Shown here: piece after piece, positions 5,554-12,932 of the stretch
Numbering within the stretch: position 1 is the stretch's first letter
Layout: each line of letters opens with the position of its first letter
Source of the DNA: Candidatus Geocrenenecus huangii
GTDB lineage: Archaea; Thermoproteota; Nitrososphaeria_A; Caldarchaeales; Wolframiiraptoraceae
Assembly: GCA_023268155.1 (NCBI GenBank)
Contig: JALNKM010000001.1
Location: forward strand, 310,001-374,000
Direction of reading: 5' to 3'
DNA: 64,000 bases
The notes under the pieces: model-generated
Databases searched by the model: none
What the model was told of the DNA's origin: nothing
Seen by the model: the letters and a program-made list of their open reading frames with translations, nothing else
Translations under genes and position numbers: made by a program

Positions 5554-5827
5554 GAACGTAGCGGTTAGACAAGTCACAAGGATCGCGACAATACTGAGAG
5601 AAAATCTGGACAGCAAGCTAGGAGAATGGAATGAAGCAGTAATCGGTAGAGGTGAACTTAAAGACGTATTGGGAAAATACGGGGAGAGACTTAAAGACGT
5701 TTTCACACTTTCATTGAAGAAATTTAACGTAAACCACTTTCTAGATTCTGATGGTGAAATAGAGGTAATAGTCGAAGATTTTAATAAACCTGTATTGAAA
5801 ATTAGGAGGTTGAAGAATTGGAGATAG
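5534..5827 (+). CDS. Hypothetical protein between RHH and ParB-like genes
   Basis: 97 residues, overlapping both neighbours in other frames (20 bases before, 10 bases after), which argues that it is translated. It is basic at the N-terminus (MPKLKNKNVAVRQVTRI), with a central region rich in charged helices and a C-terminal strand-like IEVIVEDFNKPVLKIRRL. I recognise no family. GAGGAGG precedes its ATG closely. Confidence 0.55.
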   Translation: MPKLKNKNVAVRQVTRIATILRENLDSKLGEWNEAVIGRGELKDVLGKYGERLKDVFTLSLKKFNVNHFLDSDGEIEVIVEDFNKPVLKIRRLKNWR

Positions 5828-6675
5828 AATATATTCCGATAAACCAGCTCAAAATCGCAGACTACAATCCCCGAGAAGCTAGAAGTCCTGAAATCATTCA
5901 AGGCATAATCGAGACATACAGATCAAGGAACATCGTTAAACCTCTTCTCGTAAGGAAAAAAAGAGATGGAGAATATGAGGTATTCGATGGTGGAACGAGG
6001 CTAGAGGCGTTAAAGATTCTCAACGTAGATAAAGCACCATGTATCATATATGATTGTAGTCGTAGAGAAGCTATGGAGATGGCTGCAATAGTGCATACAA
6101 ACCGTGAAGAATTGACTCCAGCGGAGAAAGGAAAGTTTATTTTGAGATGCATCAACGAAGGTATTTGGAGAAATGTTGAGGAAGCGGCTAGAGCATTAGG
6201 ATTCTCTAAAGACACACTATATGACTGGATAAAGGAAGCAAGAATATCTTCAGCGATGATGAATACTGGGTTGAGGAATCTTCTAAACAGAGATTCTAGG
6301 AAAGCGCTTGCATCTATGCCGAAGCCTGTAAGAGAAGAATTAATTAACGAACTAGCTTCTCTAACAGAAGAGATTGCAGGAAAGATAAAGAGAGAACTCC
6401 CAAATATTCTGAACGAGATAGTTGAAATATCCTATGAATTGGAGCCGGAGGAAGTATTGAAAGAATTCAGAGAAAGAGTCTCGAAGATTATTGAATCCGA
6501 CCTGGACTACTCTGTGATATTTAGAGCATCAAGTGGATATATGTATCAACTAGAGAGAGTGGGGAACAATGTTGTCATCAAGGTCCTCAGCAAAACTTCC
6601 TCTACCGATCAGCTCACAATACCATGTATAGATGTGAAAGAACTTGTTAGGCGACTTTCGAAGTTTATCGAATGA
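5818..6675 (+). CDS. ParB/Spo0J-like nuclease-fold protein
   Basis: 285 codons from a TTG preceded by AGGAGG. The N-terminal ~110 residues are a ParB-like domain: IPINQLKIADYNPRE (family xxxLxxxxxNPR), a YEVFDGGTRLEALKIL box (family xxxxxGxRRxxAxxxL), and AAIVHTNREELTPAEKG (family xxENxxRxxLxPxExA). A helix-turn-helix, NVEEAARALGFSKDTLYDWIKEA, follows at ~125-150. The C-terminal third is helical and then strand-rich, with no match I know. No ParA ATPase is adjacent. It may act as a viral regulator, partition protein or nuclease. Confidence 0.75.
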   Translation: MEIEYIPINQLKIADYNPREARSPEIIQGIIETYRSRNIVKPLLVRKKRDGEYEVFDGGTRLEALKILNVDKAPCIIYDCSRREAMEMAAIVHTNREELTPAEKGKFILRCINEGIWRNVEEAARALGFSKDTLYDWIKEARISSAMMNTGLRNLLNRDSRKALASMPKPVREELINELASLTEEIAGKIKRELPNILNEIVEISYELEPEEVLKEFRERVSKIIESDLDYSVIFRASSGYMYQLERVGNNVVIKVLSKTSSTDQLTIPCIDVKELVRRLSKFIE

Positions 6676-8616: not shown

Positions 8617-9210
8617 TTATTCAGCTTTATCTTCTTTAATATCTTTTTCAGCTTTGTCTTCATGGGGTGGCTGGGCTTCTAGTATTGCTTTTAAGAGTTC
8701 CTTCTGGTCAAGTTCTACTCTCGCTCTCCAGCCTACTGTTAATATTTCATCTTCAGTTTTATTGATGTATCCTCTTCTTACAGCTCTCTCAATATATGTT
8801 TCAGCTTTCCATTTTGGGAATTTTGTTTCTAGAACATCCAGTACATCTCTTAACGATGCCTTCCCACCTCTACTATAGATTATGGATAAAGCGACTGCTA
8901 GAGCCGCTACTTCATCTATCCTATAATCGGAAGTCACTAGATCCGACATAGTTAGAGGATGCGTAAGAGTTACGTAGAATCTTGCTCTGTCAAGGTCTTG
9001 GCTTGACTCATCTTCAAAAACCGTTTTTATCTGTAATCCGAGTTCATTCAATTTATGGTTTAGTAGCTCTAAAACCTTCATATAGTTCTTGCCGAGCCTA
9101 TTCTTCAGTTCCCATCCTCTTACACCAGGGCTTCTATGACTCTTGAAGAAGAGCATCGTCGCAGCTATCATGAGTTTTCTAGATATTCTTTCTTCACTGT
9201 TCATCTCCAT
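8617..9210 (-). CDS. MAGE/Nse3-like winged-helix (KITE) subunit of an SMC complex
   Basis: 197 residues. The layout follows two tandem winged helices: residues ~8-85 end with FYVTLTHPL (family xYVLVNxL), and ~95-175 contain AALAVALSIIYSRGGKASLRDV, where MAGE domains have LLMVVLSxIFMxGNxAxExxxW. The domain closes with VGWRARVELDQKELLKAIL at ~159-177, close to the MAGE/Nse3 ending WGPRAxxExSKxKVLEFL. An acidic tail follows. KITE proteins bind the kleisin of bacterial and SMC5/6 complexes. It is the last gene of the operon and overlaps the kleisin-like gene by 10 bases. ScpB-like identity is the alternative; the MAGE resemblance is my own reading. Confidence 0.6.
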   Translation of the reverse strand: MEMNSEERISRKLMIAATMLFFKSHRSPGVRGWELKNRLGKNYMKVLELLNHKLNELGLQIKTVFEDESSQDLDRARFYVTLTHPLTMSDLVTSDYRIDEVAALAVALSIIYSRGGKASLRDVLDVLETKFPKWKAETYIERAVRRGYINKTEDEILTVGWRARVELDQKELLKAILEAQPPHEDKAEKDIKEDKAE

Positions 9211-9968
9211 CTACCCATTAAGCTTATAACAAGAGATGCAGCATTCTTTCTCGAAACCTTTCTAGTATTAGGTACGAGCTTCAATTCATCCCCTAAAGGA
9301 TTCTTCTTAACTTCTACGTATCCCTCCGAGATTAAGAAACTTAGAACATAGGCTCTATGATATGTTTCTTCCAGGCTAGGACGTAAGACGAAATCCCAAT
9401 AATCTACATCATTTTTTCCTCTGGCTTTCTCAACTAGCTCATCATATAGTACCTTCATCTTCTCCTCTACTTCTTCTCTCTCTTTCTCTAAGTATATCTG
9501 GGCGAGCTCAGCTTCCTTCTCTGTAAGCTTCCAACCATATCTTCTTTCATCTCTTCTAGGTGGGAGGTTTAGGAAATGTTCGTAACCATGATGTAGTCTC
9601 TGAGACGTGAGCTGGTCGATAGATATTATTGGTCTCCAAGCTTTAAGGAATGCTTGAACAATGGACTTCTTATCAAGTACGGTTACCCTAGAAGAGATAA
9701 GCTGAGAATCTATGAATAGGGATCTAGCTTTTTCCGTTAGCCATTTATGTTGTAGAGCTATTATAGTCGCAATTCTGTAGATTGTTTCAACATCTAGTAG
9801 ATAGTAGTCTAAATCAGGGTTTTCTTCAAGCATTTTACGAAGCTTAACCAATAGCTCTTTAACATCTAGACTGAAGGGGTCTAGACCTCTCTTCTCAATA
9901 TTCTCACATATGGAGATTATCCTCTCAATCTCTTCCCTACTATACTTTTTAACTAACTTGTTACTCAC
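9201..9968 (-). CDS. Kleisin-like (ScpA/Nse4-type) subunit of an SMC complex
   Basis: 255 residues. The N-terminal segment DPFSLDVKELLVKLRKMLEE, then VETIYRIATIIALQHKWLTEKARSLF, resembles the ScpA kleisin pattern (DPWxIDIxxLxxxF, then a helix of the form LxxAAxLLxxKSxxLL). A helical, charged middle (ELAQIYLEKEREEVEEKM) would be the linker. The C-terminus, LEETYHRAYVLSFLISEGYVEVKKN, looks like the winged helix that binds the SMC head. The gene overlaps both neighbours (8 and 10 bases), so it is co-translated with the SMC ATPase and the KITE gene. The function is inferred from partners as much as from sequence. Confidence 0.6.
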   Translation of the reverse strand: MSNKLVKKYSREEIERIISICENIEKRGLDPFSLDVKELLVKLRKMLEENPDLDYYLLDVETIYRIATIIALQHKWLTEKARSLFIDSQLISSRVTVLDKKSIVQAFLKAWRPIISIDQLTSQRLHHGYEHFLNLPPRRDERRYGWKLTEKEAELAQIYLEKEREEVEEKMKVLYDELVEKARGKNDVDYWDFVLRPSLEETYHRAYVLSFLISEGYVEVKKNPLGDELKLVPNTRKVSRKNAASLVISLMGRWR

Positions 9969-11703
9969 TTACTCTCCCCACCACGGAGCGGCCACTGATA
10001 TTCTGCACGAGGAGAATGTTCACGTTATCACCTACGGGGAGCTTACCAGGAGTTATGATGAAATATTGTGAGTCAGGAGAGTTTTTAGCGGAGGCTATCA
10101 TTAGCTTAACCATTCTCTCTCTATTCAATGGATCCAGGTGGACGTCGAATTCATCGACAGCTCTGAACGGAGACTTAACATAGTTCTGGAGAGCTAGGAG
10201 GAACGCTAGTGTAGCCACTATTCTTTCTCCACCGCTGTGAGTATGAGCATCGAGTAACGTAGGCTCGGCTCCTCTGAACCCTACGTAGAGTTCTATGCTC
10301 GCTTTTTCGGGGTCCTCTAAGCCTCTCAGGACAACTTTCCCCACACCATCAGCGTAGGAGAGTATAGAGTTGTATCGAGGCTCAACATCTTCGATTAGCT
10401 TTCTCAGAAAGTTTCTCCAATTTTCTTTCCTAACCTCGACTTCTTCTAATGCTTTCTTCAAGTTTTCTTCTACTTGCTGAGCTTTAACCTCACTCTCTCT
10501 ATATTTTGCGTCTGCTACAAGATACATGTCTTCAGCTTCTTCGGAAACCTCTCCTAGGGAGGCAATCTTCAGAGTAACGGTCTTGATGTCTTCAACTATC
10601 TCTAAGGACTTCCTTACATATCTAGGTCTATCTCCTAGGCTCACAGCCTTCGCGGTCTTCTCATTCCTCAAGAATTCAAGTTTGCTGATCTCGGAGGTAA
10701 GCTTCTTAACCGTGTTTTCACTTAGTTCAAGCTTGTATTTCGTAACCGCGGACTGAGCATACTCATCAATCATCAAGTTAAGTCTCTCCTCGAACTCTTC
10801 CACCGAATTCTTATTCATGAACAATTCTATCACTTCTTTCTTCAATTTCTCGGCTTCTTCCGTACGGTACGCAAGTTCTCCCCTAAGCTTCACTTGTTCA
10901 AGTTTAAGCGCTTCAACCTTTTCTTGTAATCTCTTGATGTCTTCTTCTACTTCCTGGACTTCAGACCATGCCAGTTCAGTTTCTAGCTTCTTCTTCTGCT
11001 CCTCCATCATCTTCTTCTTGACAAGCTTCTCATATTCCTCTCTCCAATATTCTACTGCTGCTCTAGCTTCTTCTAGAGCTCTCTTAAGAGTTTGAGCCTC
11101 AGATTGCACGTTCCTAAGTTTTTCTTCCGCCTCGATTATTCTTCTCCTGAAATGTGATGCTCCTACAGCGTCTTCAACCATCTTCAACTTCTCGATATTG
11201 CTCTTAGCAGCGAACTGCTCGATCATGTTTTGATGCATTATTATCAGCATGTTGTTCGGGTTTATTCCAAGCTGATGGAGGAGGTGGTCGACTTCCGCCT
11301 TCGTCTTAAATCTATTATTAACATAATGCCAGTAGTCCCCGTTCTTCTTTATGTATCTAGTTATCACAAGCTGGTCTGAAGTTATCCAGGGTATAGGTTT
11401 CCAGCCATCTACTTCATTGTTATCGAAGACCACGGATACTCTTGCCGCCTCTTCTCCTCTCCTAATAAGGTCGCTGAGCTTCTGGCTTCTCTCCGTATAT
11501 GTTTGTCCTAGAGCTACTGCTATGCCTAAAAGTATACTAGATTTTCCTGCACCGTTCGGTCCCGTGACGATGTTTATTCCAGGCTTAAGAGGTATCCTAG
11601 AATATTCATGGCTCATGAAATTCTCTAATATCACTTCACGGATATACGTCCTTCTAGCTGTTACTTCTCCTAAAGCTTCAACAGTACTCTTCGTCTGCTT
11701 CAT
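9961..11703 (-). CDS. Short SMC-family ATPase with SMC5/6-type head and no visible hinge
   Basis: 580 residues against ~1000-1200 for ordinary SMCs. Residues 24-60 read ILENFMSHEYSRIPLKPG, then Walker A GPNGAGKSS (48-56) and ALGQT, as in SMC5/6. IIMHQNMIEQFAAKSNIEKL is the Q-rich segment after it. The C-terminal head has signature SGGER (490-494), SPFRAVDEFDVHLDPLNR (Walker B plus the SMC6-type DEFDVxMDxxNR) and YFIITPGKL (SMC6 xFIxLTPQ). The ATPase halves are joined by only ~280 residues of charged coil. The usual LGxVxxxAxxxY element before the C-head is kept (near ~396-410), but no globular hinge with Gly pairs is visible. An AGGT precedes ATG 11703. First gene of the operon. Confidence 0.85.
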   Translation of the reverse strand: MKQTKSTVEALGEVTARRTYIREVILENFMSHEYSRIPLKPGINIVTGPNGAGKSSILLGIAVALGQTYTERSQKLSDLIRRGEEAARVSVVFDNNEVDGWKPIPWITSDQLVITRYIKKNGDYWHYVNNRFKTKAEVDHLLHQLGINPNNMLIIMHQNMIEQFAAKSNIEKLKMVEDAVGASHFRRRIIEAEEKLRNVQSEAQTLKRALEEARAAVEYWREEYEKLVKKKMMEEQKKKLETELAWSEVQEVEEDIKRLQEKVEALKLEQVKLRGELAYRTEEAEKLKKEVIELFMNKNSVEEFEERLNLMIDEYAQSAVTKYKLELSENTVKKLTSEISKLEFLRNEKTAKAVSLGDRPRYVRKSLEIVEDIKTVTLKIASLGEVSEEAEDMYLVADAKYRESEVKAQQVEENLKKALEEVEVRKENWRNFLRKLIEDVEPRYNSILSYADGVGKVVLRGLEDPEKASIELYVGFRGAEPTLLDAHTHSGGERIVATLAFLLALQNYVKSPFRAVDEFDVHLDPLNRERMVKLMIASAKNSPDSQYFIITPGKLPVGDNVNILLVQNISGRSVVGRVSE

Positions 11704-11940: not shown

Positions 11941-12414
11941 ATGGTTAAAATAGAGTGTAAAACAACTCTTGAACGTTTTAGACAGTTCATCATTCTGAAT
12001 ACTTGTAAGTCATTTATCCCCACAGAGTATCTCAAGGATCCGGGTATTTTCCCGGAAAGAGATATTTCTCAGGGATTGATATATGTTGAGGCTGTTTCGA
12101 AAACTGATTTAGAGAGGATTCGTGATATACGATTTGTTAAAGCCATCGAGGTTCTCGGAGTAATCTACAAGTCTAAAAGTGGAAATACTGACTTGAAGTG
12201 GAGGCAGATTAAAGGGGTTGTCGGGAAAGTAGTTGGTGAAGCATCTCCGAACTCTATTGTGAATCTGATAGAATCGGGTGTGCTACCTAGAAGCTCTATA
12301 AAGAAGATGCTCGAAAAGTTTACCTTAATATCCGTAGAAAAAAAGAACGAAGATAAAAATAATCTCGACGATGAATCTTTTAGTCAATCTCCTCCTGAAG
12401 GATTAGATTACTGA
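11941..12414 (+). CDS. Hypothetical protein with a possible NusG N-terminal (NGN)-like domain
   Basis: 157 residues. The region GLIYVEAVSKTDLERIRDIRFVKAIEVLG (residues ~45-73) resembles the NGN fold of Spt5/NusG, where GYIFVEAxxxxxVxxAIxxIxxVKG is usual. A basic stretch GKVVGEASPNSIVNLIESG follows, then an acidic, low-complexity tail (~130-157) that is probably disordered. No KOW domain is seen. A GGTGGAAG purine run lies before the ATG. It converges with the archaemetzincin gene, overlapping by 7 bases. Could be an unrelated conserved protein. Confidence 0.5.
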   Translation: MVKIECKTTLERFRQFIILNTCKSFIPTEYLKDPGIFPERDISQGLIYVEAVSKTDLERIRDIRFVKAIEVLGVIYKSKSGNTDLKWRQIKGVVGKVVGEASPNSIVNLIESGVLPRSSIKKMLEKFTLISVEKKNEDKNNLDDESFSQSPPEGLDY

Positions 12415-12932
12415 GCTCGGAGTTTCCCAAGCTTAGACTTACACTTCTGGCATAGCGTCCAAGACTTGTAATCTGTATCACCTATCCAGTTACTAAAGGC
12501 CATCACGCATCTTCTATCATTGCAGTGGGTTAACCCATTTAAATGCCCGACTTCATGTACCGCCTCCTTAACCAATCTCTCGATAAAGATTTGTCGGTCT
12601 GGTGACTGCCCATAAAATTCCTGTCTTAATCTATGTGTAGAAACTACAGCGACACCCTGCCATGCTAGTCCAAAGATATAGTTGAGTCCTGAAGCATATA
12701 TGTCTCCTTCAACTATAAGTAATAGGTATTCATTCATTCTACGTTTCTCGCCATATATCTCAACGAGCTTCCATGCATCATACTGTTTTCTCTTGTTATT
12801 GAAGCTGTTGTGGTCCAAGATTTTTCCAATATACTCTACAACAACTTCGAAGTTATACGTTTCCACTAATAATTTAGCAACCGTCTCTAAAGCCTCCTGA
12901 TTATCTAACTCGGAAAATATCTTAATCTTCAA
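12408..12932 (-). CDS. amzA: Archaemetzincin zinc metalloprotease
   Basis: 174 residues, the usual archaemetzincin size. The motif begins at residue ~126: HEVGHLNGLTHC, four residues, then CVM, and later CQKC. This is the family signature of a catalytic zinc bound by three His and a second structural zinc held by four Cys. The upstream part YLLLIVEGDIYASGLNYIFGLA (family xxLxxTDxDLxxPGLNFVFGxA) also fits. The substrate is unknown in archaea. The protein has no signal peptide and is probably cytoplasmic. Confidence 0.93.
   Translation of the reverse strand: MKIKIFSELDNQEALETVAKLLVETYNFEVVVEYIGKILDHNSFNNKRKQYDAWKLVEIYGEKRRMNEYLLLIVEGDIYASGLNYIFGLAWQGVAVVSTHRLRQEFYGQSPDRQIFIERLVKEAVHEVGHLNGLTHCNDRRCVMAFSNWIGDTDYKSWTLCQKCKSKLGKLRAQ

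Follow-up and report, generated by a model that had tools for sequence, protein, structure and literature searches.

To our knowledge, Smc5/6 has so far been described as a whole machine from eukaryotes only, and an archaeal SMC5/6-related ATPase was reportedly described by Yoshinaga and Inagaki in 2021. In reviews, Smc5/6 stands as the KITE-based SMC complex of eukaryotes, and those of prokaryotes are given as Smc-ScpAB, MukBEF and Wadjet (PMC10512200); for archaeal SMC complexes, the absence of a KITE subunit has been argued (PMC7055376). In published ATPase-only trees, archaeal "SMC5/6-related" SMC proteins and eukaryotic SMC5/6 form a clade with 100% bootstrap support (PMC9389158). Here we describe an operon of three overlapping minus-strand genes (the trio) in a window of 64,000 nucleotides, the whole stretch of DNA analysed, on contig JALNKM010000001.1 of Candidatus Geocrenenecus huangii, to which all coordinates refer unless a locus is named; the source genome comprises 1.7 Mb in 21 contigs and is 96.5% complete. 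In our view the three products are likely to form a minimal SMC complex that is KITE-based and belongs to the SMC5/6 branch. Computed directly were the three family identities, the operonic linkage, the co-occurrence of the genes, the fold of the KITE protein and the absence of space for a hinge.

The locus had been singled out in an earlier note, made from the letters alone, as a miniature archaeal relative of SMC5/6 composed of an SMC ATPase, a kleisin-like protein and a MAGE/Nse3-like KITE protein. The open reading frames lie exactly where they had been placed, with overlaps of 8 and 10 bases, and the ATPase motifs that were quoted (ENFMSHE, GPNGAGKSS, PFRAVDEFDVHLDPLNR and FIITPGKL) are all found in the sequence. 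In independent tests the core of that proposal, an archaeal relative of Smc5/6 with an SMC5/6-type ATPase, an Nse4-like kleisin and a KITE of MAGE/Nse type, holds; several of its particulars had to be altered, as set out below.

Family affinities of the three proteins

The first gene encodes a short ATPase (mini ATPase) whose head is, by sequence comparison, of the SMC5/6 type. Complete head lobes are present in all members of its family. When a profile of 34 members was compared with the PDB, yeast and human SMC6 and SMC5 ranked at the top (224-186 bits), with yeast Smc6 at 224, Smc5 at 223, Pyrococcus SMC at 186, SMC2 at 164 and Rad50 at 59 bits. So that chain length and coiled coil would not bias the scores, two profiles restricted to heads were built from eight sequences each, one from canonical archaeal SMCs, including that of the same genome, and one from mini ATPases. 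The canonical profile gave SMC1-4 197-250 bits, SMC5 80-92 and SMC6 68-71, whereas the mini-head profile gave SMC5 157-184 (184 for the yeast protein), SMC6 128-135 (131 in yeast), SMC1-4 60-106 and Pyrococcus SMC 131-138. Swapping the canonical for the mini-head profile therefore reversed each branch's preference, raising SMC5 and SMC6 by about 60-100 bits and lowering SMC1-4 by more than 100. Both this reversal and the PDB ranking uphold the SMC5/6-type ATPase first claimed from motifs. The ITP motif at the H-loop position has counterparts in yeast Smc6 (IIITPQD), yeast Smc5 (FLITPKLL) and human SMC5 (FFITPKLL), whereas the genome's canonical SMC reads VISLKD there; the Walker B sequence DEFDV is as in Smc6. 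In a rooted tree of heads, SMC5/6 and the mini ATPases are joined (support 88/94) and the mini and canonical ATPases are separate clades, which is suggestive of kinship between SMC5/6 and the mini ATPases; the tree is without SMC1-4, in place of which the two-profile test was used.

Among the 34 homologues of the mini ATPase the span between head lobes measures 235-336 residues (median 260), whereas the canonical SMC encoded in this genome has 757, and residues 196-345 of the mini ATPase are low in proline and glycine; on these grounds of length and composition the mini ATPase is predicted to leave no room for a hinge. The absence of a match to the Pfam model SMC_hinge was not counted as proof, because it also misses the genome's own canonical SMC, a full-length protein. 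A CxxC zinc hook was found in none of the 34 homologues, and residues 309-330, near the expected apex, are moderately conserved. Canonical SMCs of 732-775 amino acids (aa), compared with about 1150, were observed in Hadarchaeota and some Thermoproteota carriers of the trio (loci L085-L090; genomes G299, G300, G301, G302, G305 and G306), so that shortening of arm or hinge may have occurred twice in these archaea.

The second protein is predicted, from homology and modelled fold, to have a C-terminal winged-helix domain (C-WHD) of the Nse4 type. Taken alone, the window protein has Nse4_C as its sole Pfam match (E 0.046); 22 of 35 family members match Nse4_C (best 5.3e-6), the runner-up family being matched by three, and SMC_ScpA is absent among the families listed for these members. 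The four best solved structures found with the family profile are all of the Nse4 type, led by yeast Nse4 (2.7e-5) and human EID3, an Nse4 paralogue (1.1e-4), with none below 0.25 after these two. A six-frame search of whole genomes with Nse4_C returned the kleisin gene of the operon as the best match in five of six genomes, including the source genome. The AlphaFold 2 model has a predicted local distance difference test score (pLDDT) of 78, mostly above 85 in the C-terminal winged helix, and a predicted template modelling score of 0.42; its first Foldseek match is an Nse4 chain (7tve_G, 2.5e-4), ranks 2-10 are kleisins, again including Nse4, and it aligns with the ScpA C-WHD 4i99 at a TM-score of 0.79 on the target. 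Homology with canonical archaeal ScpA in the C-WHD was also recovered by hhalign (94.8%), and the weaker matches of the kleisin profile in three genomes examined are the ScpA proteins of canonical SMC-ScpA-ScpB operons. Of the ScpA-like N-terminus and winged C-terminus originally proposed, the latter stands, as an Nse4-type domain, and the former stays tentative, its match to the archaeal ScpA N-domain 6ivh being weak (E 0.28).

Profile matches and modelled structure agree in assigning the third protein to tandem winged-helix KITE proteins of MAGE/Nse1 type. Pfam MAGE is matched by 18 of 38 family members and SMC_Nse1 by 14, with five for the next family, and MAGE positions 117-206 of 207 align with residues 81-169 of the window protein, ending GWRARVELD. 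The likeness to the MAGE/Nse3 ending WGPRAxxExSK pointed out in the earlier note is therefore a real segment of the alignment, and it is not a chance one, because the KITE gene is the sole match in the whole genome at E<=1 in a six-frame MAGE search; the same model had no match in 14 control genomes. Two winged helices appear in the AlphaFold 2 model (pLDDT 86), for which Foldseek ranks 1-7 are MAGE-G1, NSE1, Nse3 or MAGE-A proteins, from 7.8e-7, with ScpB at rank 9 and MukE at rank 13. Comparison with ScpB by hhalign gave no match, and ScpB identity was rejected. Mu-like_Pro, the top Pfam match of the single sequence (0.0099), was dismissed as chance, since it recurs in only two of 38 members. 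No RING was matched in the 197 aa or by Pfam over the family members, winged helix B being followed by a charged tail. The KITE and MAGE likenesses are thereby sustained, but not the preference for Nse3 over Nse1. Lying about equally near to both, the protein would suit the part of one ancestor-like subunit that presumably forms homodimers.

Conservation and genomic setting of the operon

The three genes are a conserved unit. The ATPase shares 89% identity with a protein of Candidatus Geocrenenecus arthurdayi (Wolframiiraptoraceae; Aigarchaeota/Caldarchaeales group). Among 63 loci retrieved with the ATPase alone, 60 have the second gene and 55 the third, the window being counted; the strand is shared in every case, and the genes adjoin or overlap with few exceptions, mostly at contig ends. 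A survey of 299 genomes of the phylum by two independent searches, with the kleisin and the KITE profile, returned 122 and 121 carriers, respectively; the two co-occur in 121 of 122, and in the sole mismatched genome the contig ends inside the second gene. The KITE gene follows the kleisin gene on the same strand, within -60 to 150 bases, in 119 of the 121. The operon is interrupted only in two of the 121 genomes, G080 (L110:3565-5191) and, with the same spacing, G182, both of one family: two genes lie there between kleisin and KITE, without a Pfam match and with N-termini resembling those of archaeal secreted or pilin-type proteins. At loci L037 and L039 (genomes G341 and G342) the KITE gene is apart from the kleisin gene; it lies elsewhere in G342 and was not found in G341.

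Nearly every carrier genome has a single trio. The distribution survey suggested in the earlier note showed recurrence across the phylum Thermoproteota and in Hadarchaeota, locus labels spanning families of Caldarchaeales, Hadesarchaea, Bathyarchaeota, Geothermarchaeota, Methanomethylicota, Methanodesulfokora and deep Thaumarchaeota. Matches were obtained in 22 of the 28 genomes in the phylum group to which the Hadarchaeota loci belong, for three genomes solely as fragments or weak matches. One locus (L068, JASEGJ010000011.1) carries the taxon label Candidatus Hodarchaeaceae, which in NCBI denotes an Asgard family; it was not taken as Asgard, as its phylum group is that of the Hadarchaeota loci, and the label looks wrong.

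Coordinates in the window of the three genes and of the features assigned within them
Feature	Position	Strand	Basis or remarks
SMC5/6-type ATPase (predicted)	9961..11703	-	580 aa, ATG start; both head lobes, short coiled-coil arms; PF02463 3.4e-36
Walker A GPNGAGKSS, residues 48-56	11536..11562	-	G-P-N-G-x-G-K-S invariant in 34 homologues
Coiled-coil arms, residues 188-425	10429..11142	-	apex placed near residues 297-310 as midpoint
ABC signature motif HSGGERI, residues 489-495	10219..10239	-	S-G-G-E invariant among homologues
Walker B/D-loop FRAVDEFDVHLDP, residues 513-525	10129..10167	-	aligned with Smc6 ALDEFDVFMD, Smc5 PFRVVDEINQGMD
ITP motif at H-loop position, residues 550-552	10048..10056	-	T551 and P552 invariant in 34 homologues
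8-base overlap, ATPase stop / kleisin start	9961..9968	-	sequence
Nse4-type kleisin (predicted)	9201..9968	-	255 aa, GTG start
Kleisin N-terminal helical domain, residues 2-110	9639..9965	-	helices of AlphaFold 2 model; candidate neck-binding part
Kleisin C-terminal winged helix, residues 166-234	9267..9473	-	Nse4_C; ScpA C-WHD 4i99; hhalign to ScpA
10-base overlap, kleisin stop / KITE start	9201..9210	-	sequence
KITE protein, MAGE/Nse1 type (predicted)	8617..9210	-	197 aa, ATG start; tandem winged helices, without RING
KITE winged helix A, residues 5-82	8965..9198	-	secondary structure of AlphaFold 2 model
KITE winged helix B and conserved GWRxxxExD ending, residues 98-166	8713..8919	-	Pfam MAGE alignment, family conservation, AlphaFold 2 model

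The overlap between the ATPase and kleisin genes makes translational coupling of the two likely. Elsewhere in the same genome, another contig encodes, side by side, a canonical SMC of 1135 aa, a divergent 218-aa ScpA and a 203-aa ScpB. The genome also has a Mre11-like nuclease gene adjoining that of a Rad50-like ATPase. A search of 18 other carriers for canonical SMC had a match in all, though the only match in G303 and in G307 is the mini ATPase itself. Only one neighbour of the trio is widely conserved: an Lhr-type helicase (DEAD, WH_Lhr, DEAD_assoc), encoded convergently with it at 32 loci of several archaeal lineages (e.g., L032:9034-11886, minus strand). Lhr helicases are linked to DNA repair, and a functional connection with the trio is possible. 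The operons of relatives contain no conserved nuclease, and PADLOC has no match for the kleisin or the KITE protein, the ATPase matching generic ATPase models only.

Other neighbours are of narrower occurrence. At 16 loci (L047:3714-4418, minus strand, and 15 others), a gene shortly upstream of the trio encodes a protein of 234 aa that matches no family convincingly; it lies on the opposite strand in 15 of 16, and its carriers include Hadarchaeota and Methanomethylicota among others. An Spt5-NGN-like protein (E 0.0081) and an archaemetzincin, encoded just upstream of the ATPase gene (11941-12932), are kept there at 24 and 23 loci, respectively, of Caldarchaeales type where named. A ParB_N/helix-turn-helix protein lies 2 kb from the trio (5818-6675, plus strand) and nearby in the close relatives L010, L011 and L020; ParB loads SMC in bacteria.

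Alternative explanations and putative mode of action

Several observations weigh against assigning the operon to the SMC5/6 branch. The ATPase shows neither hinge nor zinc hook by which two copies could pair at the apex; single-sequence matches of the kleisin and KITE proteins are weak and fall under the Pfam cut-offs; and the Smc6 and Rad50 branches of the head tree are long. The phylogeny that had been suggested as a check is itself divided, since the mini ATPases do join SMC5/6 but the alternative grouping of eukaryotic SMC5/6 with canonical SMC, which leaves them outside the clade, is not rejected (approximately unbiased test, p-AU 0.22). That last result, together with the clear homology of the kleisin C-WHD to canonical archaeal ScpA and the shortened canonical SMCs of Hadarchaeota and other lineages, would accommodate an archaeal duplication of Smc-ScpAB in which a second copy was shortened, its likeness to SMC5/6 being convergence of fast-evolving heads. 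We regard this as unlikely: the canonical and mini head profiles rank SMCs in opposite order, the two kinds of ATPase are separate clades, kleisin members match Nse4_C rather than SMC_ScpA in the families listed, and the KITE protein, lacking a detectable ScpB match, prefers NSE1 and MAGE structures. An SMC-related repair ATPase of the RecN, Rad50 or ASRP/coalescin type, with accessory winged-helix neighbours that are neither kleisin nor KITE, is very improbable. Its size and missing hinge do recall ASRP and RecN, and there are weak NCBIfam scores to ASRP and Rad50, but these amount to 77 bits against a cut-off of 300 and 75 against 1000, and the partner proteins match Nse4 and Nse1/MAGE; moreover, ASRPs are mostly zinc-hooked (PMC9389158), and CxxC occurs in 0 of 34 members here. 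Membership of the ATPase in the ASRP/coalescin, Rad50 or RecN families was rejected on the scores and the missing hook, and the grouping with Rad50 or RecN named beforehand as fatal to the SMC5/6 assignment did not appear in the scores.

A defence system like Wadjet or Lamassu would likewise account for an SMC, a kleisin and a KITE, as found in Wadjet, and Wadjet, like eukaryotic Smc5/6, restricts extrachromosomal DNA (PMC10586767). The ATPase matches in PADLOC (mad3, 1e-32; LmuB, 2e-18) are generic, however, and are not joined by a family for either partner; the operon has no conserved nuclease, its neighbours are housekeeping genes, and almost all relatives have it once per genome, without visible patchiness of spread within the order. 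A defence role, offered in the earlier note beside repair, found no support and is quite unlikely. Acquisition of three eukaryotic genes by archaea would explain the likeness to eukaryotic families, which is the sole point in its favour; the wide range through Thermoproteota and Hadarchaeota, the deep divergence of the archaeal copies and the arrangement in one operon, with one SMC and one KITE rather than two of each, make it scarcely credible.

For the minimal complex of the SMC5/6 branch, a role in DNA repair or chromosome maintenance is probable, the repair-linked Lhr neighbour and the lack of PADLOC matches for kleisin and KITE favouring genome maintenance over defence. Its stoichiometry, assembly and clamp mechanism we infer from analogous KITE complexes of solved structure (PMC10512200). 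The heads of two short ATPases would engage each other around ATP; the kleisin, by way of its C-terminal winged helix, would link one head's neck with the other head's cap, and a KITE dimer on the middle of the kleisin would close a clamp over DNA atop the heads. Binding and hydrolysis of ATP may load the complex onto DNA and then move or tether it, so that broken, branched or replicating DNA would be held together. Without a hinge, any closed-ring compartment would be small or open, which makes a clamp or tether likelier than long-arm loop extrusion. The complex would act beside the separate SMC-ScpA-ScpB, as Smc5/6 acts beside condensin and cohesin.

The trio and the eukaryotic complex would share common descent. 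That the trio is the archaeal counterpart of the Smc5/6 ancestor, a machine of one SMC, one kleisin and one KITE in which duplication gave rise to Smc5 and Smc6 and to Nse1 and Nse3, and which works without a hinge, against the closed-ring picture, has in our view an even chance. A ternary complex of SMC5/6 type in archaea would imply that the SMC5/6 and condensin/cohesin branches were separate complexes already before eukaryotes, and would supply Smc5/Smc6, and likewise Nse1/Nse3/MAGE, with a natural ancestor encoded by one gene. With the trio recurring in many archaea, the origin of the eukaryotic machine becomes testable on a far simpler relative. The trio would also offer a small thermophilic three-protein system for asking whether an SMC motor needs a hinge, stable recombinant proteins being realistic as carriers include hot-spring lineages.

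Comparison with known SMC complexes

The published archaeal SMC5/6-related ATPases very probably are the mini ATPase family; in its accessible part, that account treats the ATPase alone, with no kleisin, KITE or operon (PMC9389158). A literature search, outside which lay preprints and most subscription papers, found no report of the kleisin, KITE, operon or hinge-less form of archaeal SMC5/6. The compact three-gene form, which had been supposed unstudied, hence looks new as a ternary assembly only, the ATPase itself being already known. Like ASRP/coalescin/Sph, the mini ATPase is a short archaeal ATPase of the SMC superfamily, about 600 aa long, but it falls far below their score threshold, is without a zinc hook and has kleisin and KITE partners. 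The KITE-based architecture is shared with Wadjet, MukBEF and MksBEF, as the MukE match to the modelled KITE illustrates; the trio has neither a nuclease subunit nor, in PADLOC, kleisin or KITE sequence matches, and homologues of JetA, JetB and JetD were accordingly not identified. Smc-ScpAB, which is present separately in the same genome, also combines SMC, kleisin and KITE in adjacent genes of the same order, with a homologous kleisin C-WHD. It differs in the branch to which its heads belong, in its full-length, hinge-bearing SMC and in ScpB, which is unrelated to the trio KITE at the profile level.

Eukaryotic Smc5/6 (Smc5, Smc6, Nse4, Nse1 and Nse3/MAGE) resembles the trio in its heads with an ITP H-loop, its Nse4-type kleisin C-WHD and its KITE proteins of MAGE/Nse1 type. 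The differences lie in economy. The archaeal genome, by its SMC_N matches, has one such SMC gene in its one trio and no heterodimer, a single KITE gene stands for both Nse1 and Nse3, and the arms of the ATPase are about 115-120 residues long, with no hinge. The KITE protein is without the RING that Nse1 has, the unit includes no gene for Nse2, Nse5 or Nse6, and the genes overlap in one operon. Because heterodimerisation, hinge and RING are wanting, the trio is not classed as a eukaryotic Smc5/6 complex; it is probably a KITE-based SMC complex on the SMC5/6 branch that works like Smc5/6.

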